Shown: one piece after another, positions 9,227-40,404 of the stretch
Position numbering within the stretch: the stretch's first letter is position 1
Layout of the letters: each line of letters begins with the position of its first letter
Assembly: GCA_012519455.1 (NCBI GenBank)
Contig: JAAYQE010000051.1
Location: 1 to 40,404 of the forward strand
DNA: 40,404 nucleotides
Direction of reading: 5' to 3'
Source of the DNA: Syntrophomonadaceae bacterium
GTDB taxonomy: Bacteria; Bacillota; Ch66; Ch109
Made by a program: the position numbers and the translations under genes
Notes under the pieces: model-generated
Databases searched by the model: none
What the model saw: only the letters and a program-made list of their open reading frames with translations
What the model was told of the DNA's origin: nothing

Positions 9227-9336
9227 GGTTTAGGTTAAATAATTTCCAGTAGATAATTAAGCCCTACGGTTACGCATTTTACCGGGCAGGGCATACTATA
9301 GATAGTAAGAACGCGCTAATAAAGAGGCGATATCAG

Positions 9337-9579
9337 ATGAACCGTCAAAATAGTAATCTTCTTCCCCAGTGTTTAATTTGCAACCAGACTCCCGTTCAGG
9401 GAATTGGGGGCGGTATTTTATTGTGCAAGCAATTTTTGTGTGATGCTTGTCAGGACAAGATGGTCTCTTGTTCGATCGACGAACCTTTTTACCTACAGGC
9501 ATGTGAGCGTTTGAAAACACTGTGGCACTCCTCAACTGGGGTGGTGAAGTCAACGGGACAAAGAACCGGAAGTCGTTAA
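9337..9579 (+). CDS. Sigma-G inhibitor Gin (CsfB)-like zinc protein
   Basis: CLICNQTPVQGIGGGILLCKQFLCDACQDKMV. Confidence 0.78.
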   Translation: MNRQNSNLLPQCLICNQTPVQGIGGGILLCKQFLCDACQDKMVSCSIDEPFYLQACERLKTLWHSSTGVVKSTGQRTGSR

Positions 9580-9665
9580 AACTAGGGGTCGTTAGAACTT
9601 GGATATAAATACCGGGATAATGGCGTGTATTTTGAAATAAAATGAAATAGCTTCGGTTTTCTTGC

Positions 9666-9697
9666 AGAAAGGGCGGCTTGGCTAGCCCTTTCTTTGA
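9666..9697 (+). terminator. Terminator after gin
   Basis: AGAAAGGGC-ggcttggcta-GCCCTTTCT followed by TTG. Confidence 0.65.
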
Positions 9698-9709
9698 TTA
9701 TATGATACA

Positions 9710-12000: not shown

Positions 12001-12433
12001 GGATAAATTAAGTTCAACGGATAGAACCAGAAGTAAAAAACGGATTTTGGAAACCGAAGGATCCGGTCGTACTTTTGTGGAAGAGATTAAACGGGTAGAG
12101 GCGGTGCAGTGGCAGGAAAAACTGGACCAGCTGATGCAAAGCATTGATGAACAGGCCGAACGTTTACAAAAAAATCAGACCGTACGGGAACTGCAGATCT
12201 ATAAAAACCTAGTTCGAGAGTTTTTACAGGAAACTACGGGAAGTAATTATCGCAAGGTACAGGAAAGTCGCTGGGATCGGCGAGGAAATCTGCGGGTCTT
12301 GACGGTAATTGCGGAAATTGATCAACAACTAGGGGAATTAACCCATCTAGTTATGCAGGAACAAAAGGATCCGTTGAAGATTTTACAAAAGTTAGGGGAA
12401 ATAAGAGGTATCCTGGTGGATTTATATGGTTAA
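11978..12433 (+). CDS. yaaR: YaaR family protein (DUF327)
   Basis: Size, charged helical content and conserved position between tmk and holB. Confidence 0.8.
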   Translation: MKVKELSRDKLSSTDRTRSKKRILETEGSGRTFVEEIKRVEAVQWQEKLDQLMQSIDEQAERLQKNQTVRELQIYKNLVREFLQETTGSNYRKVQESRWDRRGNLRVLTVIAEIDQQLGELTHLVMQEQKDPLKILQKLGEIRGILVDLYG

Positions 12434-12482
12434 GACCCGGATTTAGAAATCCAAGTTCGTTAGGTAATGAGGAGGGGAGCGC

Positions 12483-13502
12483 ATGTCCTGGTCGGAAATC
12501 ATTGGCCAACCGGTAGCGGTTCGCCAATTACAGAATGCCGTAAAAAGGGATCGGATCGGACATGCCTACTTGTTTTATGGTCCGGCCGGGGTAGGTAAGC
12601 GTACTACGGCCCGAATTTTTGCCCAGACATTGAATTGTCTGGAGAGCGGGACGGGTGACGTCTGTGGACAATGCCGTTCCTGTCTCCAAAGTAAGGCCGG
12701 TAATCACCCGGATATACTGGAAATCACTCCTATGGGTACTTCTATCCGTATTCAACAAATACGGGACCTATCACGGGAAGCTTTGTTTCGGCCTTTAGCG
12801 GGCCGGCATAAGATTTTTTTGATTCTAGGTGCCGAAAATATGACTTTAGAGGCCGCTAATAATTTATTAAAAATACTAGAGGAACCTCCGGCGTATGTAG
12901 TCTTTATCTTAACTACAACAGCCAATTTAAGGCTATTACCGACGATCCTTTCCCGCTGTCAGCAGATCCGGTTTGCGCCGTTGACGGTTCAAGCTATAGA
13001 AAACTATTTAGTCCAGCAAGAGGCCGTAGACCCGGTCTTAGCCCGGCAAATGGCTCATCTGGCCGGAGGTAGTTTAAGCGAGGCCATGGAACTACGGCAA
13101 GAGATACAAACGGAAAAATCGCTGCGGGAGGCAGCCTTAGAAATGCTAACCCAAATGGGGGAAGAGGATAGTTTAGCGGCCTTATTACGGTTTAAACCCT
13201 GGGAAGAGCGTTCCCAAGTAAAGCTATTATTACAGGTGTTAGGTTTATGGTTTAGAGATTTAATGATCTGGCAAAAGACGGCGGAAGAACGTCTACTGGT
13301 AAACCAGGATCGATTAGATTTAATTCGACGGCATGCTCATTTATGGAAGCAGGCGGATCAAGTTTTATCCTTAATTCAGGATGCCCGCCAGAAGCTGGAA
13401 AAAAACGCTAATATACCATTGCTCCTGGAAGTATTCCTATTGGAGCTTTTTGAATATAGAGGGGGATTAGTCAGTGCCAGTCGTAGTAGGGGTCCGCTTT
13501 AA
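12483..13502 (+). CDS. holB: DNA polymerase III delta' subunit
   Basis: IIGQPVAVRQLQNAVKRDRIGHAYLFYGPAGVGKRTTARIFAQTLNC. Confidence 0.92.
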   Translation: MSWSEIIGQPVAVRQLQNAVKRDRIGHAYLFYGPAGVGKRTTARIFAQTLNCLESGTGDVCGQCRSCLQSKAGNHPDILEITPMGTSIRIQQIRDLSREALFRPLAGRHKIFLILGAENMTLEAANNLLKILEEPPAYVVFILTTTANLRLLPTILSRCQQIRFAPLTVQAIENYLVQQEAVDPVLARQMAHLAGGSLSEAMELRQEIQTEKSLREAALEMLTQMGEEDSLAALLRFKPWEERSQVKLLLQVLGLWFRDLMIWQKTAEERLLVNQDRLDLIRRHAHLWKQADQVLSLIQDARQKLEKNANIPLLLEVFLLELFEYRGGLVSASRSRGPL

Positions 13503-14853
13503 ACGGGCGGGCAAGATATACTTTTTTGATCCAGGTGATTTTACGTTAGCGCCGAAGGATAAAGTGGTAGTGGAAACCGCTCGGGGAATAGAATACGGAG
13601 AAGTGGTTATAGGACCTCGGGAGGTTTCAGAAGATGAGCTAGTTCTACCGTTAAAAACGGTTTTGCGTTTAGGTACCGAAGAAGATGCTAGACAGGTAGA
13701 AGAAAACCTACAGAAACAAAATGAGGCTTTTAAGATCTGTTTAGAAAAGATCCACGAGCATGAACTGCCAATGAAACTAATCGACGTGGAATATACTTTT
13801 GATAATAGTCGGATTATCTTTTATTTTACCGCAGAAGGACGCGTAGATTTTCGGGAACTGGTTAAGAGTCTGGCCTCTGTATTTCGGACACGGATCGAAC
13901 TGCGGCAGATCGGGGTACGTGATGAAGCGAAGATGCTGGGGGGAATCGCTAGTTGTGGCCGGGTTCTCTGTTGTCATGCCTTTCTTGGTGATTTTGAGCC
14001 GGTTTCGATTCGAATGGCCAAGGACCAGAATTTATCCCTTAACCCCACTAAGATTTCGGGAATTTGTGGTCGGTTAATGTGTTGTTTAAAATATGAGACC
14101 GAGGTTTATGCCAACCAAAAAGAGGTTCAGGTAATTCCTCCCGGTTTGAAAGAAGGCTGGGACAGTAATAATGGTATCATCCCGGTTTTAGAGGAAAATA
14201 TCGAAACCGGGATGGAGTCAGCCGAAGAAACCCCAGTAGAAACAGTAACGCAACCTGAATTGCCGGTCCGGCTAGAAGAGGCTAAGGAATCGCCGGAGGA
14301 AGAGACGAATAAAACCGGTTCCACCGTAACGGTTGAAAACCATCTACCCCAGGAAGGTACGGGGAACCCAAATAGTAAACCTAAAGACCATCCCCACCCC
14401 CGCTTTCGTACGGGCAAATTGGGTCATCAAGGCCGATCTCGGGGTAACGGCCCGTCCGTGCCTAACCTATCTAAGGACCATGCACGCACCCCTTCTCGCT
14501 CTGCAGATAGTTTAGAACAACGGGGTAAGTCGGAAACCCGTGTGAATGCCCCATCAACCAATGGGACGAATAAACGGGTAGACACGCGGAATAATTATTC
14601 ACCTCGCGATAACCGTCGGCCCCGGAAAAATGGCTCTTCTCGGGGCAATGATTTGGAGCGGGTTCGTGATCCTATTAAAGTACAAAATAATGAAAAACTA
14701 AAAAATAATGGCCGTAAAAATAAAGTTAATCCTCAACCGTATCCGAGAAAGTCATCGGTAATGCCCCGACCGGTGGAACCGCAAAAAACTAAAACCGGTA
14801 ATTCAGAGAAAGGGCCGACGGAAAGCCATATGCCTCAATCAACAGGGGGTTAA
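13474..14853 (+). CDS. ricT: PSP1-domain protein RicT (YaaT) with long low-complexity C-terminal tail
   Basis: GVRFKRAGKIYFFDPGDF...CGRVLCCHAFL...ICGRLMCCLKYE; GTG start. Confidence 0.9.
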   Translation: MPVVVGVRFKRAGKIYFFDPGDFTLAPKDKVVVETARGIEYGEVVIGPREVSEDELVLPLKTVLRLGTEEDARQVEENLQKQNEAFKICLEKIHEHELPMKLIDVEYTFDNSRIIFYFTAEGRVDFRELVKSLASVFRTRIELRQIGVRDEAKMLGGIASCGRVLCCHAFLGDFEPVSIRMAKDQNLSLNPTKISGICGRLMCCLKYETEVYANQKEVQVIPPGLKEGWDSNNGIIPVLEENIETGMESAEETPVETVTQPELPVRLEEAKESPEEETNKTGSTVTVENHLPQEGTGNPNSKPKDHPHPRFRTGKLGHQGRSRGNGPSVPNLSKDHARTPSRSADSLEQRGKSETRVNAPSTNGTNKRVDTRNNYSPRDNRRPRKNGSSRGNDLERVRDPIKVQNNEKLKNNGRKNKVNPQPYPRKSSVMPRPVEPQKTKTGNSEKGPTESHMPQSTGG

Positions 14854-14856
14854 GTT

Positions 14857-15192
14857 ATGCAGATATCTTCGATTATAATGGAGATGGAGGAGAAGATAGC
14901 GGATTTAGGTAAAGAGTTAAAGGCGATTAAAGAGGGGGTAAGGGCGCTTGAGAAGGAGAATCAGTTACTCCGTCAAAAGCTTTATATGCCTTCTTCTCCA
15001 GTAACACCAAACGAATCGCATAAATCACCTAAGGAGAGAAAATCCGGAGCCGGCTATCGTAATTTAGGCTTTCTTTATGAGGAAGGGTATCATATTTGTC
15101 CGCATAATTTTGGACGCGTACGCACCGAGGACTGTCTTTTTTGCCTAAGTTTCTTAAAACAGGCGGAAGGATCGGAAGGGAAACCTGAGTAA
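14857..15192 (+). CDS. yabA: Replication initiation control protein YabA
   Basis: N-terminal coiled coil; C-terminal zinc motif [24 protein letters not shown]. Confidence 0.9.
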
Positions 15193-16004
15193 TGGAAGGG
15201 TTATGCTTACCTGATGAATTTGTGGTAGATTTAAAACAAGGACTAAAATTAATCCAAAGCCGTCAGGGTTATGGTTTAACCATGGATACCGTACTGTTGG
15301 CCCATTTTGTCTCTCTGCAACCGGGAGATCGGGTCGCGGAGTTAGGTACCGGTAACGGGGCTATCCCCCTTTTATTGACTACGCGGGTGGAGGAGTTAAC
15401 TGTTTGGGGCTTAGAATTGCAACCGAGCCTTGCGGACCGGGCGCAGCGTAGTGTATTTCTGAATAGATTGGAAGAGCGAATTAAGATTCAAAGCGGGGAT
15501 TTGCGGCAGATTCAAGAAATTAAGGCCCCTAACACTTTTGAGGTGGTAATTAGTAATCCCCCTTACTGGCCGGTCGGGAGAGGGAGATCTAATCTTCGCT
15601 GTGAGGTAGCTTGGGCTAAGGAAGAACTAGGTTGCAAGTTGTCGGAGGTAATCATAGCTGGCCATTGGTTATTACGTCCTGGTGGGAGAATGGCGTTAGT
15701 TCATCTGTGGGAACGTCGGCAGGAAGTCATAGAAACTTTACTGCGGCATGGAATGAAGCCTCGGGTTTATCAAGAAATTCAATTTAACCCAAAATCCTTA
15801 CCGACGCGAATTTTGGTGGAGGCGGTTAAATCCGACCAACCCGAGAGCGCAGAAGTTATTCCGATTGAAGTGAAAGGTAAGGAAGGAGACGCATTGACCG
15901 CCTGGGCCCAGGCGGTGATGACAAAGATTAAGCGGGAGCCCTTGATCCTCTATACGGCTAACCGCGAGTTTACCCCGGAGGTCAAGGTGATGTACGATGA
16001 CTAA
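15192..16004 (+). CDS. tRNA1(Val) (adenine-N6)-methyltransferase family (TrmN6/YabB)
   Basis: VAELGTGNGAIPLLL, catalytic VISNPPYW. Confidence 0.9.
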   Translation: MEGLCLPDEFVVDLKQGLKLIQSRQGYGLTMDTVLLAHFVSLQPGDRVAELGTGNGAIPLLLTTRVEELTVWGLELQPSLADRAQRSVFLNRLEERIKIQSGDLRQIQEIKAPNTFEVVISNPPYWPVGRGRSNLRCEVAWAKEELGCKLSEVIIAGHWLLRPGGRMALVHLWERRQEVIETLLRHGMKPRVYQEIQFNPKSLPTRILVEAVKSDQPESAEVIPIEVKGKEGDALTAWAQAVMTKIKREPLILYTANREFTPEVKVMYDD

Positions 16005-16953
16005 TTTAAAAAAAGGGCAGTCGGTTAACGAGTTTGGTCAATTGTTTTTATGCGCGACGCCGATTGGTAATCTAGAGGATATTACTTTGCGGGTGTTGAG
16101 GGTATTCCAGGAAGTAGATTTGATTGCTGCAGAGGATACCCGGCGTACCTTAAGGCTATTGAATCACTATGGGATCAGTAAACCGCTTACCAGTTACTAT
16201 GAGCATAATCAACGCCAAAAAGGGCCCTTTATCATCGAACAGCTTTTACAAGGAAAAAAGGTGGCGTTAGTGTCCGATGCCGGGATGCCCGGCATTTCTG
16301 ATCCGGGAGAAAATTTGGTTCAGGAAGCGCTCGCAGCGGGGGTACCGGTGACGGTATTACCGGGACCTTCTGCCGTGTTGGCGGCATTGAGTCTTTCTGG
16401 TCTTTCTACGCGTAGATTTGTTTTTGAAGGGTTTTTGCCACGACCGCGAAGGGAACGGAAGCAGCGTATTCAGGAATTAGCCGGTGAACCCCGAACCCTG
16501 GTGCTTTTTGAGTCACCGCATCGTTTGCTAGAAACGTTGCCCTTGCTTCTAGAATCCTGGGGACCTAGAAAGGCCGCAGTCGTGCGAGAAGTCACCAAAA
16601 AATTTGAAGAGGTGATACGGGGAACGCTCGCAGAGGTCTGGGAGCATTTTAAGGTTGAAGCTCCTCGAGGGGAATTGGTGTTGGTCATTGAAGGCCAATC
16701 GATATTAAACAAGGCCAATGATGGGGTTGAAACTAGCCGGGAAGGAGCTTCCTCCGAAGCCATTGAGGAGCGTATTGAGGAATTATTGGATATGGTAGCT
16801 TTCCGGGCTGAGAGGGGCGAAAATCCCCGGGATGTATTACGGGAGATAGCCCGGAAATATAACTTAAGCCGACGCAGGCTCTATCAGTCCTGGATTAAAG
16901 CCCGCAACCAAAAAGCAGATAGCCCTTCGCATTTAAAAAAGGGAGAGAGCTAA
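15997..16953 (+). CDS. rsmI: 16S rRNA (cytidine1402-2'-O)-methyltransferase
   Basis: LFLCATPIGNLEDITLRVLRVFQEVDLIAAEDTRRT...SDAGMPGISDPG. Confidence 0.95.
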   Translation: MTNLKKGQSVNEFGQLFLCATPIGNLEDITLRVLRVFQEVDLIAAEDTRRTLRLLNHYGISKPLTSYYEHNQRQKGPFIIEQLLQGKKVALVSDAGMPGISDPGENLVQEALAAGVPVTVLPGPSAVLAALSLSGLSTRRFVFEGFLPRPRRERKQRIQELAGEPRTLVLFESPHRLLETLPLLLESWGPRKAAVVREVTKKFEEVIRGTLAEVWEHFKVEAPRGELVLVIEGQSILNKANDGVETSREGASSEAIEERIEELLDMVAFRAERGENPRDVLREIARKYNLSRRRLYQSWIKARNQKADSPSHLKKGES

Positions 16954-24238: not shown

Positions 24239-25777
24239 TTATTTGACCAGATAACAATTATTGCGCAAAATTTGAGTATTAATTTTATAGGCTACCTTAA
24301 CCTCAGGTATCTTGGGATTATCTTGACTAGGAAGCACTTCGATTTTATCGACTAACATCTTAAATAGATCTTGTTTGATTTCACTATCAGCTGAATTAAC
24401 TATATCGCCGATTTCATTAATAATATTTTGCAAATCCATACCCAAGTCAACGACTTCCTGTTTTTCTTGTTGTTGTTTTAGGATTTGCTTCTCTCTATCT
24501 TGAAGCGTTTTTAAGCCGCGATTTCTTTCTTCGATATTAGCTGAAATATCTTTTTCAGACACTATGCCTTTTGCAAATAAGTCTAATAGCTTTTTCTTTT
24601 CTTGTTCAAGATCATTTTGCATTTTTTTAATGTTATATAGTTCGTCATCTAAATTAGCGGGATTTGTCGTTTCTTGTTCTAAATACCTAGATATCTCTTG
24701 AGCTAATTTTTTTGGATTAGAAAAAAGGCTTTTAATCTCGTCCCAGATAATATTTTCTATTACTTCTGCTGGTAACCCGGGAGAATTACAGATTAGATTA
24801 TCAGGTAATTTTTTTCTACGGTTACAGCGATAATAAAAATGTTTACTACTGCATGAAGTTCCGTTATAAGAGCTTCCACAAACACCACACTTAATTAGTC
24901 CGCGTAAAAGATATATTCTTTTAGAGTGTTGTGACATTACTTTTCGCTCCTTTGCGACTCGTCGGGCTTTTTTAAAATCTTGCATCTTAATTATTGCGGG
25001 AATGGGAACGCTGATTCGTTTTTCCCCGGGTGGCTTATAGGGATATAGGCCGCTGGAGTAATACTTAGTGTTAAGGATTTTAGAAACAGAATATGAACAC
25101 CAGCCATATTTCGAGCGCGATAAATACCAGTCGCCTTTATAGTGTGCAGGAGATGGCGTCCTATGAGCATTCAAGTAATCTACGATTGCTTGAGTGCTCA
25201 TTTCTTCTTCTGTGTAAAGCCTGTAAATAAGTTTAACGGTTTTAGCCTGATCAGGCGATACCACAAGTCGTTTGTCTTTGTTTAAAATGTATCCAAACGG
25301 GATAGTGCCCTGAGGGAACTTCCCTTCACGTGCGTGACGAATTTTGCCTTCTGTAAACCTTTGTCTTATTACCGCGCGATCGTACGCAGCAAAGGTAGAA
25401 AACATACTGGCCATTAACTGCCCGGAGGGTTCAAAGTAGTCGAATGGTTCATTTATTGAAGTTAGGGACACACCGGATTTTTTAAAAAGTTGGTATATTT
25501 CTTGGGCCACAAACTCATCTCTGGCCAGACGATCCACTCTTAAAATCAAGACTTGTGTTATTTTACCCTCTAGGATGTCCAGAAGCAAGCGTGAGCCTTC
25601 CGGACGATCACGTAGAGGTAAAGCACCACTAATGCTGTCATCCTTAAACCAGTCATCTTCTGAGATAACAATGCTGTTCCGTTGACAGTACTCTTTAATA
25701 TTTTGTATTTGGGCCTGGATGGTATCACCCTTCGATTGTTCCTCGGTTGAAACCCGACAATAAGCAGCATAGGACAT
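24239..25777 (-). CDS. Large serine recombinase (integrase of the ICE)
   Basis: MSYAAYCRVSTEEQSKGDTIQAQ (catalytic Ser), LRVDRLARDEF, recombinase domain IPFGYILNKDK..., zinc ribbon CGVCGSSYNGTSC...YYRC, coiled coil. Confidence 0.95.
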   Translation of the reverse strand: MSYAAYCRVSTEEQSKGDTIQAQIQNIKEYCQRNSIVISEDDWFKDDSISGALPLRDRPEGSRLLLDILEGKITQVLILRVDRLARDEFVAQEIYQLFKKSGVSLTSINEPFDYFEPSGQLMASMFSTFAAYDRAVIRQRFTEGKIRHAREGKFPQGTIPFGYILNKDKRLVVSPDQAKTVKLIYRLYTEEEMSTQAIVDYLNAHRTPSPAHYKGDWYLSRSKYGWCSYSVSKILNTKYYSSGLYPYKPPGEKRISVPIPAIIKMQDFKKARRVAKERKVMSQHSKRIYLLRGLIKCGVCGSSYNGTSCSSKHFYYRCNRRKKLPDNLICNSPGLPAEVIENIIWDEIKSLFSNPKKLAQEISRYLEQETTNPANLDDELYNIKKMQNDLEQEKKKLLDLFAKGIVSEKDISANIEERNRGLKTLQDREKQILKQQQEKQEVVDLGMDLQNIINEIGDIVNSADSEIKQDLFKMLVDKIEVLPSQDNPKIPEVKVAYKINTQILRNNCYLVK

Positions 25778-25930
25778 AACAAAACCGTTCCTTTTGTTTT
25801 TTATCATTTTAGCACAAAAATTGAATACGCAAAACAATTGAGCAAATCATGAAGAGAACAGGTAAGTTTAGCGGATAGAGCGAAAATTAAGCGACCAGGT
25901 TTTAATTTTCCTGGAGGGAGGTAAATTTAA

Positions 25931-26929: not shown

Positions 26930-29401
26930 TTGGCAATACTAGCCCCTTTTGTGGTTAAGTTATATTCTTATTCGCCAAGTAAAGAAAATTGCGCCAAAAA
27001 CGTAGCGCATATAGGTTATATCGCTACAAGGTCTGGAGTCGATCAAGGAGGGCTTGAATCCAAGAAAGACGAAGAAATACACGTCCGATATATGCATGAA
27101 CGGCCAGGCAGCCAGGGGTTATTTGATAAAGATGGTATAGCAGATTTAAGAGCGGTTGAAAGTGAACTGAAAAGTCATAAGGGGGTGGTTTGGCGTGGGG
27201 TAGTTTCTTTACGGGAGGATGAGGCGACCCGAATCAACCATCTTGATAAATCGGATTGGGCAAATACCTTGCAAAGATCTTTTCCGGAAATTGCAGATAA
27301 ATTAGGTGTTTCTGAATCAAACCTTAGCTGGGTAGCAGCTTACCATCCCGAAGCGGGACATCCGCATTGTCATATCGTTTTTTGGGAACAGAAACCCCAA
27401 CGCCTACCCAATCGGTTTTCGCGGGCTGAGCTTAGGGACATTAGAAAAGTTATAATTAAAAAAACTTATGAGTGTGAACGCGAGAGACTGAAGCTAGAAA
27501 AAAATTATTTTCGAAATTCGTTGCAAGGCGGAGTCAGGGACATTTTGGGGTTACGCAAAGGAATAGAGGCTGCCGCAAAATTAGTTAAGGCTGAAATCGG
27601 TGATCGTCCTGGGTTGTCTCCTAGAATGTCAGAACAACAGGCACAAGAGCTTATACAAAAATTACACAATCTTTCGGATAAGTTGCCCGGCCGTGGTAAA
27701 GCAGCTTTTAAATATATGCCGCAAGAAGTTAAGGCTGAAATAAGAGATATTGCGGACTGGGTGTTACGACAACCCGGGTTTCGTCAAGAAACTGAAAAAT
27801 ATTTAGAAGCGCATACCCAAATGACTAAAACATACACTTTTCAAAAATCATCTATTGATAAGGCCAGAAAAAATGCCTATGGTGACCTTCGCAAACGAAT
27901 TTCGCAAGATCTTTTAAAGGCGGCGGTGCGGATTCAGCGTCAAAACAAAATCGGAGAAAAAAGGGAATCATCTCCTCATGAAGGCCATAATATTGGTTCT
28001 CAGGACATTCCAGATATAGGTCTACAAGACTCAATTGCGTTGGCCTCACCTTCGAAAGATCATGGTAGGGGTGGTAAATTGTCCAAACCCGAGAAAGAAA
28101 CCAGGGAATGGTGTCGTTCTGTTTTCCGCTTAGTTGAGCGTGAACGCGCGAGGGCCGGATATACAGATCGACTTAAATTACCGAAATTTAATGGTTACCC
28201 GGAGGGATTAAAAAAGCTACAGGAAATAGCCAAACAAATCCCTGAAGATTTTAAGGGACGAGCGGTAATCGCTTATTTACCTGATGAATTAAAACAACAA
28301 GCGAGGGAGGCAGCTGATTGGTTGCTTAGTAATCCGGATATACAGAAACCTTTACAGGATTATCTTGAGACTACCCAGCATGATCCCGTAGCATATAACC
28401 AAATACGGGATAGAGTAGCGGAGAACGCATTATTCCATGCTTTGCGGTTGCTAAACCGAGAAATACCAAATGTAGAAATGGTATTACATTCGCAGCGGGC
28501 AATTATGGCTATAGAGCAAATATCTAAGGCTGCGGCCGATGTAGTGCGCGACGATCCCATAGAAGCTAGGTGGACATTAGGGAAAATACACGAAGCCTTA
28601 ACCAAAATAGAAGCTTCCAAGGAACGAACCCAAGACATAGTAACTCAATGGGCAAAAGACGCAGGAATAGAGATTAGCATTAATTCGGTGCTTCAGCGCA
28701 CTTATGACGGAGAAAACGATCTAGATTTTATGGGTAAAAAAGATTGGAATCATTTGCGGGATAATCTGGGTTATCATGAACATGAACTCCTAAACCCGTG
28801 GATGGGAAAAACAAGATCAGTAGAGGAACCTGAACCTGAAAAAGAAGAAAAAGAACGGGATGCACCACAGCCCGTTAAGCCTATTAATCCGCCGGATCTT
28901 GTATCAAGATATATACCGGCGGCATTAGAAGCCTTTAACTCTGTCGCGAAACCAGAATTGTTATTGGATAAAGAAGAATTACAGTGGACCATTTGGACAT
29001 CTTCCTGGGTTTTAAAAGAGTTGGGCGTAGATTCCCCAACACGTTTACAAATTTTAAATAACTGGGCACAGCGTTCCGGTATAGAAATATCAATGGCCCG
29101 GGTAGCAGATATAGTCCACAGGTCTAATTTAACCCATGAAGAAAACATAGATCCACGTTGGCTAGGACAGGGCAACTGGGAAAGGCTGATGCGTAATATA
29201 GGCGCAAACAACGTGCCTGAGCGACCATGGCAGTATCCGTCTATACCATCTATACCATTTAACTGGGCTGGCACAATTTGGAAGGGGTTGTGGCAGTCGG
29301 TCCAGCGCGAACGAACTAAAGCTGAATTTCAAGCGCGTCGCTTGGAATTTGAACAAGAACGGGAACGCCAGGAGAAAAGCAAAGGGAGGAGAGAGAGATA
29401 A
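26930..29401 (+). CDS. Relaxase, MobP-type (MobP2/P3-like)
   Basis: HIGYIATRSGVDQGG, HxH-type motif HPEAGHPHCHIVFWEQ; TTG start; long C-terminal helical region. Confidence 0.8.
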   Translation: MAILAPFVVKLYSYSPSKENCAKNVAHIGYIATRSGVDQGGLESKKDEEIHVRYMHERPGSQGLFDKDGIADLRAVESELKSHKGVVWRGVVSLREDEATRINHLDKSDWANTLQRSFPEIADKLGVSESNLSWVAAYHPEAGHPHCHIVFWEQKPQRLPNRFSRAELRDIRKVIIKKTYECERERLKLEKNYFRNSLQGGVRDILGLRKGIEAAAKLVKAEIGDRPGLSPRMSEQQAQELIQKLHNLSDKLPGRGKAAFKYMPQEVKAEIRDIADWVLRQPGFRQETEKYLEAHTQMTKTYTFQKSSIDKARKNAYGDLRKRISQDLLKAAVRIQRQNKIGEKRESSPHEGHNIGSQDIPDIGLQDSIALASPSKDHGRGGKLSKPEKETREWCRSVFRLVERERARAGYTDRLKLPKFNGYPEGLKKLQEIAKQIPEDFKGRAVIAYLPDELKQQAREAADWLLSNPDIQKPLQDYLETTQHDPVAYNQIRDRVAENALFHALRLLNREIPNVEMVLHSQRAIMAIEQISKAAADVVRDDPIEARWTLGKIHEALTKIEASKERTQDIVTQWAKDAGIEISINSVLQRTYDGENDLDFMGKKDWNHLRDNLGYHEHELLNPWMGKTRSVEEPEPEKEEKERDAPQPVKPINPPDLVSRYIPAALEAFNSVAKPELLLDKEELQWTIWTSSWVLKELGVDSPTRLQILNNWAQRSGIEISMARVADIVHRSNLTHEENIDPRWLGQGNWERLMRNIGANNVPERPWQYPSIPSIPFNWAGTIWKGLWQSVQRERTKAEFQARRLEFEQERERQEKSKGRRER

Positions 29402-29793: not shown

Positions 29794-31290
29794 TTGCCAG
29801 GAGGGATTGTTATTGGAACCGATCCGGCCCGGAATAAATACTGGATCGTTGATGATGATACCCACGTATTGCTAATAGGTACCACCCGATCAGGTAAATC
29901 ACGTCGAGTGATCATGCCGACGATCTGGCATTTAGCTAAATCGGGTGAATCAATGATCATATGTGACCTCAAGAAAGAACTACACCCTATTACCAAGAAG
30001 CACTTGCGAAAACAGGGATACAATATCATTACTCTCGATTTCAGGACCCCTAATACAGGCAACCGATGGAACCTATTGAAACCGGTTTTAGAGGCTCTGG
30101 CTGACAATAACACAGCACTTGCGGTCCAGCATGCCGATGATATAGCTCATACTCTTAGTTACGATCCTAAATACCGTGGCGATCCAATTTGGCCATCTAC
30201 TAAAAAAGCACTGACATCCGCCCTGATCCTTGCGGTAGCAACAGAAGCACCGGCCCCACACAAACACATGGGGACGGTTTTTAATTTACTGGCCCATCTA
30301 GGGCAAGGAGGGGGTAAAGCTTTAGATTACTATTTTACCAAACTTCCGCTTGGGCATCCGGCTCGGAATCCCTACACCATTTTTCAAATGAGTATAGACA
30401 AAATGCGGAGCAGTATAGCGACGGATACGCTTACAACATTACAGTTATTTGGGGTTGATCCGGCTATTGTCTGGATGATCGCGGATCAGGACCACGACCT
30501 GGCAGCGGCAGGCAGAAATAAGACCGCTGTTTTTTTGGTTATCCCCGACGAAAGAACCAATCGAAACGTGCTGGCCTCTTTGTATATCCAACAATCTTAC
30601 AGTGCCTTGGTCGATTTAGCGAATGAAAACAAAGGACGGTTACCCATAAGAGTTAACTATTTGCTTGATGAATTCGGAAATATTCCGGCCATCCCTGACT
30701 TTACTACTAAAATAACTACCGCAGGAGGAAGGGGTATTCGATTCACTCTTGCGGTACAGGGAATAGACCAGCTTGCAGAACACTATCCTCATCGAGAAAA
30801 CACGATTATGGGGCAGTGCTGGACCTGGATCTATATTTTAACATCCGACGTGAAGACGGCTGAATTAATATCACTTAAATGCGGTAACTACACGGTGGCG
30901 ACCGAAACTTATAGTTCCTCGGCTCAGATGTCCGGGGCCCGAAGTGAAGGCGTTACCCAGGGCCTTACTTCACGGCCTCTGGTGATGAAGGATGAAGTGC
31001 TGCGTTGGCCCGTAGATTCAGCTCTGGTCTTGCGAACCCGTTTACAACCGGCTCGGCTTCCTCTGCCCGATATATCACTGCTGCCTAAAGTCGTTAGTGA
31101 TCTAGATTTGAAGCGCACAGGCAAACCTGATCCAGAAAAAGACATACAATTGCCAGAACCGTGGTTACCTTTTGTGTTAACAAAACAACCCCAACTACCT
31201 GACGCAAAAACAACAAAAGAAGTAGAGATTGATGCTCTTTTTACCAAAAAAGAAGGCGTTGATAAAGAAAGTGTTGATTTAGGTTTTTAA
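29794..31290 (+). CDS. VirD4/TraG-type coupling ATPase (motor domain)
   Basis: Walker A LLIGTTRSGKSRRVIMPTI, MIICDLKKELHP, Walker B NYLLDEFGNIPAI. Confidence 0.9.
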   Translation: MPGGIVIGTDPARNKYWIVDDDTHVLLIGTTRSGKSRRVIMPTIWHLAKSGESMIICDLKKELHPITKKHLRKQGYNIITLDFRTPNTGNRWNLLKPVLEALADNNTALAVQHADDIAHTLSYDPKYRGDPIWPSTKKALTSALILAVATEAPAPHKHMGTVFNLLAHLGQGGGKALDYYFTKLPLGHPARNPYTIFQMSIDKMRSSIATDTLTTLQLFGVDPAIVWMIADQDHDLAAAGRNKTAVFLVIPDERTNRNVLASLYIQQSYSALVDLANENKGRLPIRVNYLLDEFGNIPAIPDFTTKITTAGGRGIRFTLAVQGIDQLAEHYPHRENTIMGQCWTWIYILTSDVKTAELISLKCGNYTVATETYSSSAQMSGARSEGVTQGLTSRPLVMKDEVLRWPVDSALVLRTRLQPARLPLPDISLLPKVVSDLDLKRTGKPDPEKDIQLPEPWLPFVLTKQPQLPDAKTTKEVEIDALFTKKEGVDKESVDLGF

Positions 31291-31695: not shown

Positions 31696-32589
31696 TTGTT
31701 TGATTCAATTTCAAAGTGGATAACGGAGAATATAACTGAACCCTTACAGGAAATGATAGTCAGCAGCGTAAATGCTGTATTAATCACGTTTCTCAATAAT
31801 TTAGTGGACTTTGTTACCGGTATTATGCAAAAAGAAGCAGAGCTGGCCCAATCTTTAATCGATAGCCCTTATATTATTCAAGCAGTAAAATACTCCATTA
31901 CACTGGCTTTAACACTTTTGGCGGTAAGAATAGCTTTTGAAGCCTTTCAAACCTATATGGCTTACAACACTGGAGAACAAAGCAACCCGGGGGATTTAAT
32001 AAAAAAGGCTGCTGGTGCAGCTGTACTAATTGTTTCTTCGCCCTGGATCGTAAGACAAGTATTGGTTTTTTCTTTCTCCATTGTGGACGATATTCAAGTC
32101 TTTCAGGCTGTTCCTGATGTATCAACTTTCGGTCAAGCGGTGGCTGGCTTTGTTTTTACTCAAGCTGGCCTTATTAGCGCCCCGGCAATTATATTCTTTA
32201 TTTTTGCTATTATTTTATGGATCATCGTTCTGATACAAATGGCGGTAAGAGCAGTAAACATAGCGATGCTGATGATTGTTGGCCCCTGGATGTGGGCCTT
32301 TCAAAATGAATTAGGAAAAAGTTGGTTTAAAGCTTTAGTTGGACAGTGCTTTGCGATTCCGATTCAAATTTTCATGCTACGTGGGGCGTTGGGGAGTTTT
32401 ATCGCAACCTCAATGCAAGGGCCTTTATCGGGCTTGCTGTTTGTTGGGTTTTTGTGGTCTGCGATAAAATTCCCCGCTTTTCTACAACAACTTGTAGCCC
32501 AGACCGGGGTAGGGGGGGCAATTGGAGGAACCGCTCAGCATGTAGGCTCAGCTGTGTTCATCCGTAGACTGGCTAGGGGGGCGAGATAG
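31696..32589 (+). CDS. VirB6/TrbL-like polytopic T4SS membrane protein
   Basis: About six TM segments; IQMAVRAVNIAMLMIVGPWMWAF. Confidence 0.72.
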   Translation: MFDSISKWITENITEPLQEMIVSSVNAVLITFLNNLVDFVTGIMQKEAELAQSLIDSPYIIQAVKYSITLALTLLAVRIAFEAFQTYMAYNTGEQSNPGDLIKKAAGAAVLIVSSPWIVRQVLVFSFSIVDDIQVFQAVPDVSTFGQAVAGFVFTQAGLISAPAIIFFIFAIILWIIVLIQMAVRAVNIAMLMIVGPWMWAFQNELGKSWFKALVGQCFAIPIQIFMLRGALGSFIATSMQGPLSGLLFVGFLWSAIKFPAFLQQLVAQTGVGGAIGGTAQHVGSAVFIRRLARGAR

Positions 32590-32591
32590 CA

Positions 32592-32888
32592 ATGTATTTA
32601 ATTCCTCGAAATATATCGAAGCGTTTTGAGTTTTTCCCCGGCTGGGGATGGAAAGAGTTAATGATACTTTTTGGTGGTATAGGAGCGGGGGCCTTAATCT
32701 GTGCCCTGCTTAGCCTTATCACTCAAAGCCCGGCTCGATTTTTACCGATTTTATTTTTGGGTGCAGTCGGATACATGGGAAGCAAACCCATCATGGCCGA
32801 CGGCTCTACTGTTCTCCAGATTGTGCAATATGCACGAAGGTATAATTCTGGACAAAAATTGTATTTATCGAGAAAAGGGGGATTTTAA
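32592..32888 (+). CDS. PrgI/VirB3-like T4SS protein
   Basis: YLIPRNISKRFEFFPGWGWKELMILFGGIGAGALI; upstream of VirB4. Confidence 0.75.
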   Translation: MYLIPRNISKRFEFFPGWGWKELMILFGGIGAGALICALLSLITQSPARFLPILFLGAVGYMGSKPIMADGSTVLQIVQYARRYNSGQKLYLSRKGGF

Positions 32889-32889
32889 G

Positions 32890-33522
32890 ATTAAATGGCT
32901 TAGTTTTAAAAAAAAGAATACTGCTTTTTTTGAACCCGAACAGGCAAAGAGAAAAACCGCTCAAGATTGGCTTCCGTTTTATGACGTTGCCAATTCTTTT
33001 ATTTTTCGTCGCGACAATCAACTTGTGGCCGTTTTGCGCATAGAACCAATAAATATTTCACTTAAGTCTGAAGGTGAGAAAAAGCGAATAATAACTACGA
33101 TACACGAAGTTTTAAATGGCCAGCTTGAGCCCATTCAGATATTTTGCCTGCCGAGACCGGTAGACCTCGATATTTATTTAGAAAAACTTTATCGACAGGC
33201 CAGGGAAACCGTAGACCAAATAAGAAAGCGGCTTTTAGGGGAATACGTTACCTACGTTGCAACGGTGGTTCGCGCCGGAGAAGCGATTGAACACCGTTAT
33301 TATATTCTGTTGTCTCAGGAATTCGGCAAACACGCAAAAGAAGAACTATCTCAGCGGGCGTTTGAGCTTGCTTCAAATTTTTCTCGAAGCGGTCTGAAAA
33401 TCACGGTTTGCGATGATGCCGCTATTTTGGACATGCTTTTTTCTTTTTCGCAACCCGTACAAGCAGCGTTTGAGCCTGTTCCTATGGGGGCAGGAATTAC
33501 TGTTTTATACAAGGGGGGTTAG
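32890..33522 (+). CDS. TrsD/TraC-like T4SS protein (putative AUU start)
   Basis: IKWLSFKKKNTAFF...DWLPFYDVANSFIFRRDNQLVAVLRIEPINISL; between VirB3- and VirB4-like genes. Alternative in-frame start at 32701 or about 32830 would overlap the PrgI gene. Confidence 0.65.
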   Translation: MKWLSFKKKNTAFFEPEQAKRKTAQDWLPFYDVANSFIFRRDNQLVAVLRIEPINISLKSEGEKKRIITTIHEVLNGQLEPIQIFCLPRPVDLDIYLEKLYRQARETVDQIRKRLLGEYVTYVATVVRAGEAIEHRYYILLSQEFGKHAKEELSQRAFELASNFSRSGLKITVCDDAAILDMLFSFSQPVQAAFEPVPMGAGITVLYKGG

Positions 33523-33527
33523 ATATT

Positions 33528-35309
33528 TTGATCAATAATATTCAATCTGGCCTGTTGGATGCCCTTGCACCACAGGCTATAAATTTTCATCCCTCCGTTC
33601 TTCGATTCGGGGATCTCGAGGGCAGAGTGTTGGTTGTAACCGACTTCCCACCATCTGTGGGGACTGCCTGGTTAGCCCGGGTAACCCAGATTCACGGGGT
33701 TACCTCATCATTGCATATTACGCCGACGAATTCAGCAGATCTGGTTGAAAACATAAATAAAGCCATTGGCGAGTATTCGTCTCGCTTGGCCCAGGGGGGG
33801 AACGCCCTGGTGATGCAGCGTACTGAACAGGCTTTAGAAGATGCGGAAACCTTATTAAAGAAAATAGACCTTGAGCAACAGAATATTTTTTATATGACCG
33901 TGATCCTTTTTATTACTGCAATAGACCGGGAGACCCTGGATAGACGCACCCGGCAAGTGGAAGCATCATTGGCGGCAGCCGGAATGAGGGGCAGGACATT
34001 GATATTTCGCCAGGAACAAGGGCTTAAATCTGTGGGCCCCTGGATGACTCTGGAGCCCGAGATAATGGCAGCTGGCAGAAATATGCCGGTTGAAACTGTA
34101 GCCGCCAGCTTCCCGTTTGTCTCGGGCGGGTTAAATGACGCAAGTGGGATTATGCTGGGCCGCGATCAGGCCGGCGGGGTGGTGGTGATTGATATATGGC
34201 AGCGCGGTGGATACCGGACGAATTCAAATTGGACCATCCTAGGCAAACCCGGTACCGGGAAATCTTATACCGCAAAAATGTTATTACTGCGGGAATACGC
34301 CCAGGGCGCGAAAATAATTATCATTGACCCGGAAAGAGAATATCGGGCCATGTGCCGACAAGTCAAAGGTGCCTGGATAAATGTGGCCGGAGGCCAAGGG
34401 CGGATTAATCCGTTACAGATACGCTCCTTACCTTTAGATCAGGATGATGAGGATGAAGAAAAATCAATCTTTGATGCGCAAAGCCCACTGGGACTGCATT
34501 TGCAGGTTTTGAGAACATTCTTTTCACTGTATTTGCGTGATTTGGGAGACGTTGAGAGATCTATCTTGGAAGACGCGCTTATTGAAGTTTATAAAGAAAA
34601 AGGGATTGATTTCACCACCGATCCTAAAGACATTTTGCCGGAACAATGGCCGATTATGTCAGATTTATATCAGTATATTTTAGAACAGCAATCAAAAAAG
34701 CCGGATTTATTTGAAAGACTGGCCATCCTGCTTAGACGACCAGCAGAGGGCGCAGATGCGGCATTGTGGAACGGTCCAAGTGGTGCTGCGGCTAAAAATG
34801 ACTTTATAGTATTAGATGTTCACGAGCTTCAAAATGCGGATGACTCAGTTCGCAGAGCGCAGTATTTTAACGTTTTATCCTATGCCTGGAACCTAATAGA
34901 ACAGGACCGAAGCAGTAAAGTTATTCTATTTGTTGATGAAGCCTGGATGCTGGCTGATGACCAAACTCCGCAAGCTTTGGCCTTTTTGAGAGACACCAGC
35001 AAACGAATTAGGAAGTATCAGGGTAGTCTTATAGTTGCCAGCCAAAACGTGATTGACTTTTTAGATCCCGTCGTTGCCCGACATGGCCAGGCGATTTTAG
35101 ATAATCCGTCATATAAATTATTGTTAGCCCAAGGGGATAAGGATCTGATGGCCCTATCTAATATGATGAATCTCACCGAAGCTGAAGCAGAGTTGCTTCA
35201 ATCCGCAAAGCGGGGCGAGGGCTTATTAGTGGCCGGAAACCAAAGAATTCATCTCATGATTGAATCTGCACCTTATGAGGAGCCTTATCTAGTAGGAGGG
35301 GGTTCCTAG
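33528..35309 (+). CDS. VirB4-like T4SS ATPase
   Basis: Walker A ILGKPGTGKSYTAKM, IIIIDPEREYRAM, Walker B ILFVDEAWMLADD. Confidence 0.9.
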   Translation: MINNIQSGLLDALAPQAINFHPSVLRFGDLEGRVLVVTDFPPSVGTAWLARVTQIHGVTSSLHITPTNSADLVENINKAIGEYSSRLAQGGNALVMQRTEQALEDAETLLKKIDLEQQNIFYMTVILFITAIDRETLDRRTRQVEASLAAAGMRGRTLIFRQEQGLKSVGPWMTLEPEIMAAGRNMPVETVAASFPFVSGGLNDASGIMLGRDQAGGVVVIDIWQRGGYRTNSNWTILGKPGTGKSYTAKMLLLREYAQGAKIIIIDPEREYRAMCRQVKGAWINVAGGQGRINPLQIRSLPLDQDDEDEEKSIFDAQSPLGLHLQVLRTFFSLYLRDLGDVERSILEDALIEVYKEKGIDFTTDPKDILPEQWPIMSDLYQYILEQQSKKPDLFERLAILLRRPAEGADAALWNGPSGAAAKNDFIVLDVHELQNADDSVRRAQYFNVLSYAWNLIEQDRSSKVILFVDEAWMLADDQTPQALAFLRDTSKRIRKYQGSLIVASQNVIDFLDPVVARHGQAILDNPSYKLLLAQGDKDLMALSNMMNLTEAEAELLQSAKRGEGLLVAGNQRIHLMIESAPYEEPYLVGGGS

Positions 35310-36310
35310 TGGCTGCTGTGCTTAGGGTTTTACAGACAGCTATTGCCATTTTTCGAGACTTCGTTGAGAACGATGGCAAAACGCTCGCTTATACAGCCAT
35401 CGGAATTATAAGTGTGTTTTTTGCCTTATTAGTGCTAATTATAATGCCGGTAGTTATCCACGAAAGAGTTCCAGTCGCAATTACCGAGGAACAAGCGGTT
35501 TGGTATTGGCAGGGAGCAAAGGATATTACGGAAATGACACAAAGCCCTTGTGATGAAGGTGTTTACGTTGATTGGCAGGAAGTAATTGCAATAGACGCTG
35601 TAAGACTGAAGCAAAATTTCAAAAAATCTTCAGCTGGGAGAGCAAGGGATTTGGCAGCGGATTTTGTGGAGCCTGATGGTGAGTGCGCTTATTGTACCGG
35701 TAAGGATGAAGACAGAGAATGTACAACTTATACTACATATAGCCTTAACTCGATACAACAAGTGATGAACGAAATTGGTATGTCTGAAGAAGCCCAGAAA
35801 ACCGTAAGGGAAAAGTACTTAGCTATTAGGTATGACTTTCTTATTGGTTATCGTTCTGAGCCTTCCATAGTTAATTATGATTCTCTTTATTCAGGAGGTA
35901 TGGTGTGGCCAGTGCCTTCTTACCATCGTGTTTCTAGTCCCTACGGCATAAGGGTACACCCGGTAAAAAAGGGACGTTCAATGCACTATGGCATTGATAT
36001 ACCTGCTCCAGTAGGGACTTTAATTCATTCTCCCGCTGATGGAAAGGTAAAGTCTTATTCCTGGTCCGATGGAGCCGGCTGGGTAATGGTGGTAGATCAT
36101 GGCGAAAACACCCGGGGAGAACGCATAACCACCCGTTATTGCCACCTTTCAGAAAAAGTGGCCCGAGTGGGTCAGGAAGTTAAGGCCGGAGACAGCATCG
36201 CTAAAGTTGGAAACACTGGACGCTTGACTACCGGGCCCCACCTGCACTTTGAAATATACGTAAACGGAGTCACCGTCGATCCGGTGACGCTTTTCGCAAG
36301 CGTTAAATAA
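35309..36310 (+). CDS. Membrane-anchored M23 (LytM) peptidase, T4SS cell-wall hydrolase
   Basis: N-terminal TM; VSSPYGIRVHPVKKGRSMHYGIDIPAPVGT...GPHLHFEIYVNG. Confidence 0.88.
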   Translation: MAAVLRVLQTAIAIFRDFVENDGKTLAYTAIGIISVFFALLVLIIMPVVIHERVPVAITEEQAVWYWQGAKDITEMTQSPCDEGVYVDWQEVIAIDAVRLKQNFKKSSAGRARDLAADFVEPDGECAYCTGKDEDRECTTYTTYSLNSIQQVMNEIGMSEEAQKTVREKYLAIRYDFLIGYRSEPSIVNYDSLYSGGMVWPVPSYHRVSSPYGIRVHPVKKGRSMHYGIDIPAPVGTLIHSPADGKVKSYSWSDGAGWVMVVDHGENTRGERITTRYCHLSEKVARVGQEVKAGDSIAKVGNTGRLTTGPHLHFEIYVNGVTVDPVTLFASVK

Positions 36311-37048: not shown

Positions 37049-37540
37049 GTGAATAATAACTCAAATTTGGATTTGGGTAACTTTATAATTAGTTGGAAAC
37101 GGGCAAGCCATAGGGTAGTTGTAACTGGAGAAGCAAGTTATATGTATTCGATTTTTCCTAAGATTAAAGATCGATTAATAAATTACACAAAAAAACAAGA
37201 CCGTGTTTTAGTTACTAATAACGAAATGTTTTGCTTTCAAGGTCAAAAATATAATCTTGAGCGTTTTATCGAATATCAGGAGGATCTTTTTTATAACCCT
37301 AAAAATCTTAACAAACATATAGCCAGGGCAAAACTAGTAGGCAGTTATGTTTACTTAATTGGGCCTGATTTTGAAGCTTCTAAAGCCGAAGCCTTGTTGT
37401 ATCTCTGGAGAAGATCACGTATATTAGCGTGTCCTGCAATTGCGATTGTCCCGTCATCCAACGACTACTATTCAAAGAAGCTATTGTCGGCCCTAGAAGG
37501 GGGCTCTCTAACGAGGATTTATATTGAGGATTTATATTAA
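37049..37540 (+). CDS. Hypothetical protein of the ICE
   Basis: 163-aa ORF, SD caggaggt before GTG; no recognised motif. Confidence 0.65.
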   Translation: MNNNSNLDLGNFIISWKRASHRVVVTGEASYMYSIFPKIKDRLINYTKKQDRVLVTNNEMFCFQGQKYNLERFIEYQEDLFYNPKNLNKHIARAKLVGSYVYLIGPDFEASKAEALLYLWRRSRILACPAIAIVPSSNDYYSKKLLSALEGGSLTRIYIEDLY

Positions 37541-37719: not shown

Positions 37720-39816
37720 GTGAGGGAGATTAAGGGTTGTATTGCACTCGAGAAACACGATTTCTTCGAATCAAATAATTTTTTAATTAAAGAGTATGGC
37801 TCGATGGATGACCCAGGAATTAGAAAAGTCTTAATCGAAGCCAGCCGGGTTAATTTAAGTACTTTGATTATCGATTTAGATGTAGCTCCTCCAGACCCAC
37901 TGTTACAGTCTTTACATACATATCGCGTTCTTAGGCCGAATACCCGGGTAATCGCCCTGGCCCGAAACAGACACCCTCCCGATGAAACCGTCAGCGAGTT
38001 AGTGGTGGGGCTGGGAGTATATGATATAGTAACTGAAACAGAAGAAAAATTAATTTCTGCACTAGAACAAACCCTTAACTCCTCCCCCGCAACTTACGAC
38101 CAGGCCGCAAAATGGGTTTTAGAAATTGAGGAGGAAAAGAAAGAAAAGAAAATTTGGTGGAAGGGACTAACGAAAAAGGAGGAAAAAGAGAAGAACACAA
38201 ACAATTTTGGACCACAGCCTGACCCAACTCCCTTACAACCCGAAATTAATAAACAAAAAAGCCCTTTGCCCGAAGATTTTTACTTAATTGATTCGGACGA
38301 AAAACTAAAACAAGCGTTAAAGTTTTTTGATCAAGATAACTATACGGCCATCATAATTCCTTCTGAATTTACTGGATTAGCAGAAAAAATAAAAAATATA
38401 CGACGTAGTTTTTGTTTGATGGCGATTCCTATTGTGGTTCTAGGTAAAAGTGGCTTTAATCAGAATAACTGCCCCGAGGCCGATGAGGTTATAGAGGTGT
38501 TGACCACGGAAGCGATTGAACGGATTCGGCATCGAGCGGCGCAAAACAAAGAGCTTTGGCGGAAGGCGGCCCAAGATATCCTAACCGGTGCCTATAACCG
38601 CCAATTTGCCGAAGATTATTTAGACAAATTAATCCAAAATTCCCATCGGACTGGCTTTAAATTCTCTGTCGCTATCTTAGATCTTGATAAGTTTAAAAAC
38701 ATTAATGATACCTATGGACATAATACGGGAGACGGGGTTTTGAAGGAGTTTTCAAGCTTTATAGCCAGCCATAAACGCAGCACCGATGTTTACTGTCGCT
38801 GGGGGGGAGAGGAATTCGTTATCTTCTATCCCTGTTGTAAACTGCCGGAAGCGGTGACCGTTACTGAACGAATATGCCGGGAGTGGGCTAACCATAAAAT
38901 TGTTTATCAGGATTTAATCCTAAATAGTACTTTTTCGGCTGGAGTAGCTGAATATAACAGCGGAGATATTATTGTTGAGGCGGATAGAGCTTTATATAAT
39001 GCAAAGGCGAATGGGCGCAACTGTGTAGAAACCCCATTGAGTTTAAATGCCCCATTAAAACCTAAAAATACGAAACCCGAATTCAAGCCGGTTGAACTGA
39101 CTAAAAAAATCCAAAACATCTTTCAATCCGTAAAAATGCTAAAGCCAGGGCTTGATTCAACCAAGGTGACTCCCTATGGCAAAAACAAATCGTTTTTAGG
39201 GACTCCTTATGTTTCACTGAATTCACAAGTTATAACCTTTTGCTCTCCTTGGACGCCCGAAATAAACCTGGCTAGCCCGATAATTGCTGTCGCCAGGCGT
39301 TTAGCTAAAAAGAATATATCCGTAGCCGTAATTGACGCTGACTTTAAAAAGCCTGAAATTGGACCAAGACTTGATATGCCCATAGATGAACTTTGGCGAT
39401 ATGACTGGCGCAGAGAGCCTGTTGCCTTACGTATAGATAAAAACATCTTTATTTTTGTCCTTGATCCAGTGCCTCAGACTTTTGATTCAAGGGAAATTTC
39501 ATTAGCTTTAGATAAAACCCTTAACTATATCCAAAAATTTGGGGGAATATCCAAAGTGTTGATAAATGCAGGGGATGACCCCGAATTGGATGTGCTTGGC
39601 GACAAGCTTTTGTTAGTAGATGAAAATGAGATTTCTCATGTAGTAATTGAAATGTGGGAATTTAAACAACCGTTTAAAAATGGCGGGGTCTTAATTAATG
39701 GGAATCACTATTTAGCGGAAAAGTTTGGGCTGCCGTTTTTAGGGACTTATAATCCAAACAACATAAATGCTACCGCTAAAACTATTAGCACAATTTTGAC
39801 GTCAGCTTCCGTCTGA
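37720..39816 (+). CDS. Pseudo-receiver/GGDEF (diguanylate cyclase)/ParA-CpaE-like fusion
   Basis: Receiver-like alpha/beta N-terminus, DILTGAYNRQF, DLDKFKNINDTYGHNTGDGVL, RSTD-N5-GGEEF, C-terminal VITFCSPWTPEINLASPIIAVARRLAKKNISVAVIDADFKKPEIGPRL. Start GTG 37720 or ATT 37729. Confidence 0.85.
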   Translation: MREIKGCIALEKHDFFESNNFLIKEYGSMDDPGIRKVLIEASRVNLSTLIIDLDVAPPDPLLQSLHTYRVLRPNTRVIALARNRHPPDETVSELVVGLGVYDIVTETEEKLISALEQTLNSSPATYDQAAKWVLEIEEEKKEKKIWWKGLTKKEEKEKNTNNFGPQPDPTPLQPEINKQKSPLPEDFYLIDSDEKLKQALKFFDQDNYTAIIIPSEFTGLAEKIKNIRRSFCLMAIPIVVLGKSGFNQNNCPEADEVIEVLTTEAIERIRHRAAQNKELWRKAAQDILTGAYNRQFAEDYLDKLIQNSHRTGFKFSVAILDLDKFKNINDTYGHNTGDGVLKEFSSFIASHKRSTDVYCRWGGEEFVIFYPCCKLPEAVTVTERICREWANHKIVYQDLILNSTFSAGVAEYNSGDIIVEADRALYNAKANGRNCVETPLSLNAPLKPKNTKPEFKPVELTKKIQNIFQSVKMLKPGLDSTKVTPYGKNKSFLGTPYVSLNSQVITFCSPWTPEINLASPIIAVARRLAKKNISVAVIDADFKKPEIGPRLDMPIDELWRYDWRREPVALRIDKNIFIFVLDPVPQTFDSREISLALDKTLNYIQKFGGISKVLINAGDDPELDVLGDKLLLVDENEISHVVIEMWEFKQPFKNGGVLINGNHYLAEKFGLPFLGTYNPNNINATAKTISTILTSASV

Positions 39817-39895
39817 AGGGAGAGAGGCCAAGGAACAAAAACACAGGTTCGATTGTCTAATAAGAGGAATTATAATTTAAAAGGAGGTTTTCTTG

Positions 39896-40404
39896 ATGAA
39901 AAAAATTAAATCTACGTTAATATTAGGACTATTAGCTTTATTTGTTATTGTCGGAGGAGTACATGCAACCGAACAAAAAATTGACGTTTATGAAGGAGAA
40001 AAGTTAGTTAAATCGGTGGTGTTTGCCATTGGGTTAGACGAGTATTATATTAACAACCAGCTACCGGGGATAAAAATGGATGCTGCGCCGTTTATCGAAC
40101 AGGATCGGACTTTTATTCCGGTGCGCTATCTAGGCTATGCCTTGGGCTTAACTGAAAAAGATATAGCCTGGGATCAGGAGAATCAAAAGGCCACTTTAAA
40201 AGGAAAAACTGTTTTAGAAATGACCATTAACCAAAAGGAAATTGTCACTAACGGCAAAGCTGAAAACATAGACGTAGCGCCCATCCTTAAAACCGAACCC
40301 GCTCCGCGTACTTATTTGCCAGCGCGGTATGTGGCAGAAGGATTAGGGTTTCAAGTAGATTGGGATCCGGATACCCGAACCGTAATTTGTTGGCCCCAAG
40401 GCGA
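39896..40404 (+). CDS. Copper amine oxidase N-terminal domain (stalk) protein, truncated by window end
   Basis: Signal peptide MKKIKSTLILGLLALFVIVGGVHA; repeats RTFIPVRYLGYALGL..., RTYLPARYVAEGLGFQVDWDPDTRTVI; SD aaggaggt. Confidence 0.82.
   Translation, partial: MKKIKSTLILGLLALFVIVGGVHATEQKIDVYEGEKLVKSVVFAIGLDEYYINNQLPGIKMDAAPFIEQDRTFIPVRYLGYALGLTEKDIAWDQENQKATLKGKTVLEMTINQKEIVTNGKAENIDVAPILKTEPAPRTYLPARYVAEGLGFQVDWDPDTRTVICWPQG

Follow-up and report, generated by a model that had tools for sequence, protein, structure and literature searches.

Downstream of the type IV secretion system (T4SS) genes in the window (the 40,404 nucleotides analysed, which are the whole of contig C188 of a Syntrophomonadaceae bacterium) lies a gene whose product joins receiver-like segments, a GGDEF domain and a C-terminal region resembling MinD and CpaE. 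The locus raises the question of whether this protein, referred to below as the fusion, is peculiar to one mobile element or is a component of a conserved apparatus, and what the c-di-GMP plausibly made by it could control.

Domain organization of the fusion

The fusion is encoded on the plus strand by a 698-codon ORF (37720-39816) starting with GTG, immediately preceded by GAGAGGGG, a plausible ribosome-binding site. The frame is not a product of chance, since stop-to-stop frames did not exceed 219 amino acids in 50 shuffles of the window. A pseudo-receiver, a second receiver-like segment, a GGDEF domain and a MinD/CpaE-like pseudo-ATPase domain follow one another, in the order proposed in a preliminary description made from the sequence alone; the order is confirmed, with weaker evidence for the second segment. 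Pfam recognizes the GGDEF domain only. The full-length AF2 model, obtained from three sequences, has low confidence (pLDDT 52.5), and in this form matches the PleD structure at 5e-16. Profile and hhalign tests carried out with 2-5 sequences were negative or marginal, and were reversed or strengthened by deeper family alignments.

The GGDEF domain (residues 283-434, 38566-39021) is recognized by Pfam with E=1.1e-40 and a score of 139.5 bits, to be compared with a curated cut-off of 23.8. The I-site RSTD (residues 353-356, 38776-38787) and the A-site GGEEF (residues 362-366, 38803-38817) are spaced as in PleD. The residues for metal and guanine binding (D321, N329, D338, E364) and those of the I-site (R353, D356, R384) can all be read in the sequence, at positions that we take to be equivalent to those of PleD. 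The catalytic plausibility already attributed to this domain is sustained by the presence of the A-site, metal/guanine and I-site residues, and the fusion is apparently an active diguanylate cyclase provided with an I-site.

The N-terminal pseudo-receiver (residues 1-125, 37720-38094) was identified by profile and hhalign matches. A 16-sequence profile matched the Spo0A receiver at 9e-7, and the hhalign probability against CpaE receivers was 79.9%. An aspartate plausibly ends strand 3 (D52/D54), and neither an acidic pair or pocket nor the conserved lysine was recognized on reading the residues. The fusion thus hosts an atypical N-terminal receiver of the CpaE/TadZ type. The second segment (residues 186-285, 38275-38574) is weakly similar to the receivers of PhoB (E=0.004) and FrzS (0.03), its best matches, which cover only the C-terminal half of the receiver.

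The C-terminal domain (residues 494-698, 39199-39813), identified by AF2, Foldseek and profile matches, is predicted to adopt a MinD/ParA fold rather than an unrelated one (pLDDT 92.6, pTM 0.90). The best Foldseek matches were HypB, ParA, MinD and BcsQ at 1e-6 to 1e-5, with moderate TM-scores of about 0.5-0.67. An alignment of 24 family sequences matched intact CpaE/ParA domains with 96.9% probability and, among PDB entries, MinD at 5.6e-7. At the place of the P-loop is found CSPWTPEINLAS (residues 508-519), within which the tract SPWTPEINLAS (residues 509-519, 39244-39276) lacks both Walker A lysines, while IDADFKKPEIG is retained at residues 538-548. The degenerate character of the domain, inferred earlier from these same two tracts, is therefore borne out by both alignment and fold. 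No KGGxGKT P-loop was found in the fusion or in any of the 24 aligned family members; because all of these relatives lack it, its loss is not a local decay. SPW is frequent at this place in the family, altered P-loops of intermediate type are also found (e.g. SPWIPNIGTTRLA and SPWLEGAGVTTVA), and a DWR motif (residues 562-564, 39403-39411) is invariant in all 24. As the fold is present and the P-loop lost, the fusion is best denominated CpaE-like, and not CpaE or a ParA/MinD ATPase.

Relatives between T4SS and Tad genes

The element in the window is not alone in having this architecture, and a claim of peculiarity was rejected, since the family is found across the phylum. A copy in G002 shares 42% identity with the fusion across residues 201-692, and one in G099 is more distant. 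Members were detected by the C-terminal-domain profile in 25 of the 113 genomes of one class, some with weak E-values; the classes of G343 and G203 are these same 113 genomes, counted once. No relatives of the fusion were found on viral contigs, and matches in plasmid records involve the GGDEF domain only, none covering 80% of the fusion. Family members differ in their N-terminal domain, which reads as ParA-like in G099, G343 and G203; the N-termini of the G099 and G343 proteins match ParA-type partners in phmmer searches.

Across the phylum, family proteins occupy the same slot: the last T4SS gene (M23/SLT) is followed by the slot protein, and this by CpaB-CpaE-CpaF-TadB-TadC. T4SS markers (VirB4, VirB6 or M23/SLT) flank the family protein in 18 of 24 loci and Tad markers in 19 of 24, several of the marker-less loci being cut by contig ends. 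Among the 15 loci encoding a GGDEF domain, T4SS genes were found in 10 (10/12 where about 4.6 kb or more of upstream sequence is available), and a Tad operon lies directly downstream in 12; three lack Tad genes, and two with an adequate flank lack T4SS genes. The linkage of homologues to T4SS loci is thus supported. A T4SS-only context is incomplete, given the Tad operon downstream, which is the nearest functional context; this was not visible in the preliminary description because the copy in the window has lost, or lacks, the Tad operon. The GGDEF domain is missing in 9 of the 24 slot proteins, which maintain the same genomic place (T4SS genes in 8/9, Tad genes in 7/9); what stays constant is therefore the CpaE-like pseudo-ATPase, to which the cyclase is an optional addition. 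When present, the GG[DE]EF motif is intact (15/15) and the RxxD I-site nearly always kept (14/15). In G002, G099, G343 and G203, the operon of the slot protein also has its own gene for CpaE.

For comparison, 80 GGDEF-anchored loci were fetched genome-wide with the full fusion protein, a search in which matches are swamped by unrelated GGDEF domains. VirB4, VirB6, CpaB, TadB and TadC were absent from all 80; M23/SLT was found in two and CpaF in one. Many phyla contributed to the comparison loci, and the marker queries were drawn from five loci of the family itself; owing to the different taxonomy of the two sets, lineage could account for part of the contrast. The fixed position of the slot and the order of the operon are not explained by lineage or by the choice of queries.

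Homologues of MobL and VirD4 were not found near the T4SS genes of the relatives, where other relaxase families may be present. What is conserved as partner is hence the T4SS/Tad apparatus, and not conjugation in itself.

In a tree of the pseudo-ATPase domain, presence of the GGDEF domain requires 3 changes, versus a mean of 7.4 after shuffling. In a GGDEF tree, a branch with support 99/97 separates the 15 slot domains from 43 others, mostly chosen by similarity to the GGDEF domain of the window. Because of this choice, a single origin of the slot GGDEF domains is allowed by the trees rather than demonstrated.

Several loci of the family have additional features. A T4SS (VirB-type, M23/SLT) directly followed by a Tad operon is seen in L095, L100, L133-L136, L180, L182, L183, L188, L191 and L196. 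In G343 and G203, genes for three more ParA-like proteins separate the T4SS from the Tad operon, and in another related locus a HEARO RNA lies between the genes for CpaF and TadB (L178:4504-4723, minus strand). In G446, genes for ParB (L177:13603-15057) and a NERD protein (9013-10071), both on the minus strand, are found upstream of the slot protein, which suggests a plasmid-like setting. In G099, a serine recombinase gene overlaps the 3' end of ssrA, encoding tmRNA (L121:8820-9176 and 9050-10696), a likely insertion site.

The element in the window

Chromosomal genes extend up to about 23.9 kb of the window. The following region encodes a large serine recombinase (24239-25837, minus strand) and, on the plus strand, a MobL relaxase (26930-29401), a VirD4/TraG coupling protein (29794-31290), VirB6/TrbL_4 (31696-32589), a VirB4-type ATPase (33528-35309) and an M23 peptidase (35309-36310), the final gene of the T4SS block. 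VirB4 is seemingly split in two genes (32701-33522 and 33528-35309), as in G002 (L094:11529-12263 and 12244-14070). The interval between the M23 gene and the fusion hosts a reverse-strand ORF and then an ORF of 163 amino acids (37049-37540), for which no Pfam or PHROG match was found. Integrase, relaxase, coupling protein and T4SS genes are thus all present, which supports the preliminary description of a conjugative element. Neither end of the element was located: the left flank shares no 13-mer with the available right part, which does not extend to the right end. The label of integrative and conjugative element (ICE) consequently rests on gene content.

The contig stops about 590 bases past the fusion, within a gene for a secreted Cu_amine_oxidN1 protein (39893-40404, plus strand). 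This gene continues on contig C160, given the exact overlap of the latter with the last 127 bases of C188, and the joined product is 303 amino acids long. It is followed by genes for CARDB and CHAP proteins and by an ORF of 221 amino acids without Pfam match. CpaB, CpaE, CpaF, TadB and TadC are not encoded directly downstream of the fusion on C188 and its continuation, and a search of the genome assembly gave no homologue of CpaE. A close homologue of the Cu_amine_oxidN1 protein comes after TadC in G002. A second Tad-like cluster, including two CpaF-like ATPases, platform pairs and a prepilin peptidase, is located on contig C104 of the same genome (L113, L114, L117), and no CpaE was seen in the 19 kb covered. 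C104 was considered as direct continuation of C188, but no overlap was found, and C160 joins instead.

Possible roles of the fusion

The domains, the fold, the active-site residues, the loss of the P-loop and the T4SS-slot-Tad order are computed results, and the fusion is a real and conserved combination of known kinds, a CpaE-like scaffold and a PleD-like cyclase. As in CpaE/TadZ, an atypical receiver is combined with a MinD-type domain, and the relatives are encoded with CpaB, CpaF, TadB and TadC; unlike CpaE/TadZ, the fusion lacks the Walker A lysines and hosts a receiver-GGDEF unit between the two domains. PleD of Caulobacter similarly has two receiver-like domains followed by a GGDEF domain with I-site, but the first receiver of the fusion is a pseudo-receiver, and the MinD-like C-terminus and the T4SS/Tad-type locus are unlike PleD. 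BcsQ, found among both structure and profile matches, is also a MinD-fold protein of a c-di-GMP-controlled secretion machine (cellulose); it differs in that it binds ATP and has no GGDEF domain.

The location of most relatives at the T4SS/Tad junction points to local production of the signal, for the control of one machine or of both. The fusion would be paralogous to CpaE/TadZ, the ATPase that positions the Tad pilus; having lost ordinary ATP binding, it would now serve as scaffold, with a PleD-like receiver-GGDEF unit inserted within it. CpaE dimers, formed by receiver and MinD domains, have been modelled as a ring around CpaF (PMC13170226). By analogy, the pseudo-receiver and pseudo-MinD surfaces could dock the fusion on the inner-membrane machine, either at the CpaE ring around CpaF, at the adjoining T4SS, or at both. 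Docking would pair two GGDEF domains, and c-di-GMP would be produced at the machine, its output limited by I-site feedback; local c-di-GMP might in turn tune how pili extend and retract, how cells attach to surfaces and perhaps how active the T4SS is where cells come into contact. Catalysis, docking, local signalling and target are steps that we infer beyond domain assignment. Local synthesis of c-di-GMP by a pseudo-CpaE scaffold docked on the T4SS/Tad machine has, in our opinion, about an even chance of being correct. The larger idea is put forward tentatively: such a protein, conserved as it is, would unite a T4SS of Gram-positive type with a Tad pilus in a single contact machine under local regulation, and the cyclase would be one of the structural subunits of this apparatus.

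The intact catalytic and I-site residues would also suit an element-borne cyclase that raises the overall c-di-GMP level of the host, and with it biofilm formation and adhesion, the pseudo-ATPase only dimerising or regulating the enzyme. About a dozen GGDEF loci are present in the genome, and SXT/R391 ICEs, conjugative elements which also encode diguanylate cyclases, carry these genes as variable cargo (PMC2791158). The latter are hotspot cargo in Gammaproteobacteria, whereas the fusion is encoded in the apparatus region and its cyclase is part of a CpaE-like protein; unlike hotspot cargo, the gene has a fixed position in the operon, and the slot is kept without the GGDEF domain. A cargo role is thus unlikely. 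Licensing of the T4SS for mating, as envisaged in the preliminary description, would agree with the relaxase, VirD4 and T4SS genes upstream of the fusion, with VirB4/VirB6/M23 upstream of most relatives, and with the missing Tad genes in the window; the lack of detected MobL/VirD4 homologues near the relatives, other relaxase families notwithstanding, and a Tad linkage at least as strong as that to T4SS make it quite unlikely.

Because Tad core genes are missing beside it, the fusion in the window may work for the T4SS, or it may be a carry-over, left partnerless when a T4SS-Tad locus lost its Tad core; alternatively it might act on the C104 Tad cluster. The absence of CpaB to TadC between the fusion and the Cu_amine_oxidN1 gene, and the fact that no CpaE was found in the genome, would fit such a loss. 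The intact 698-codon ORF with all key residues kept, the second Tad cluster and a gene order that may be rearranged beyond the assembled contigs render a carry-over improbable. Degenerate GGDEF proteins are known to act as c-di-GMP sensors through the I-site, and an I-site conserved in 14/15 members could similarly signal to the pseudo-ATPase scaffold; yet the A-site is intact in all GGDEF-bearing members, unlike in typical receptors, and a sensor role is highly improbable.

Control of Tad pili by c-di-GMP is already known; a cyclase built into a CpaE-like component was not found in the literature searched. With such a protein, encoded between T4SS and Tad genes, local c-di-GMP signalling would become open to direct testing at a defined machine. 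The T4SS-Tad composite locus recurs, no description of it was found in the open-licence literature searched, and it may represent an apparatus for contact or transfer that has been overlooked.

Other c-di-GMP-related parts were monitored in the loci. No c-di-GMP riboswitch was detected in the window, even when E values up to 1 were allowed. Two T4SS-Tad loci, in G504 and G455, have a c-di-GMP-I riboswitch ahead of a Big_2 surface-protein gene (L195:769-853, minus strand; L193:16357-16447, plus strand), and the slot proteins of both are without GGDEF domain; as roughly 540 kb of loci were searched, this pair of riboswitches may be background only. Downstream of the G099 T4SS-Tad locus are found genes for an EAL phosphodiesterase and an actin-like protein (L140:16755-17372 and 15124-16173).
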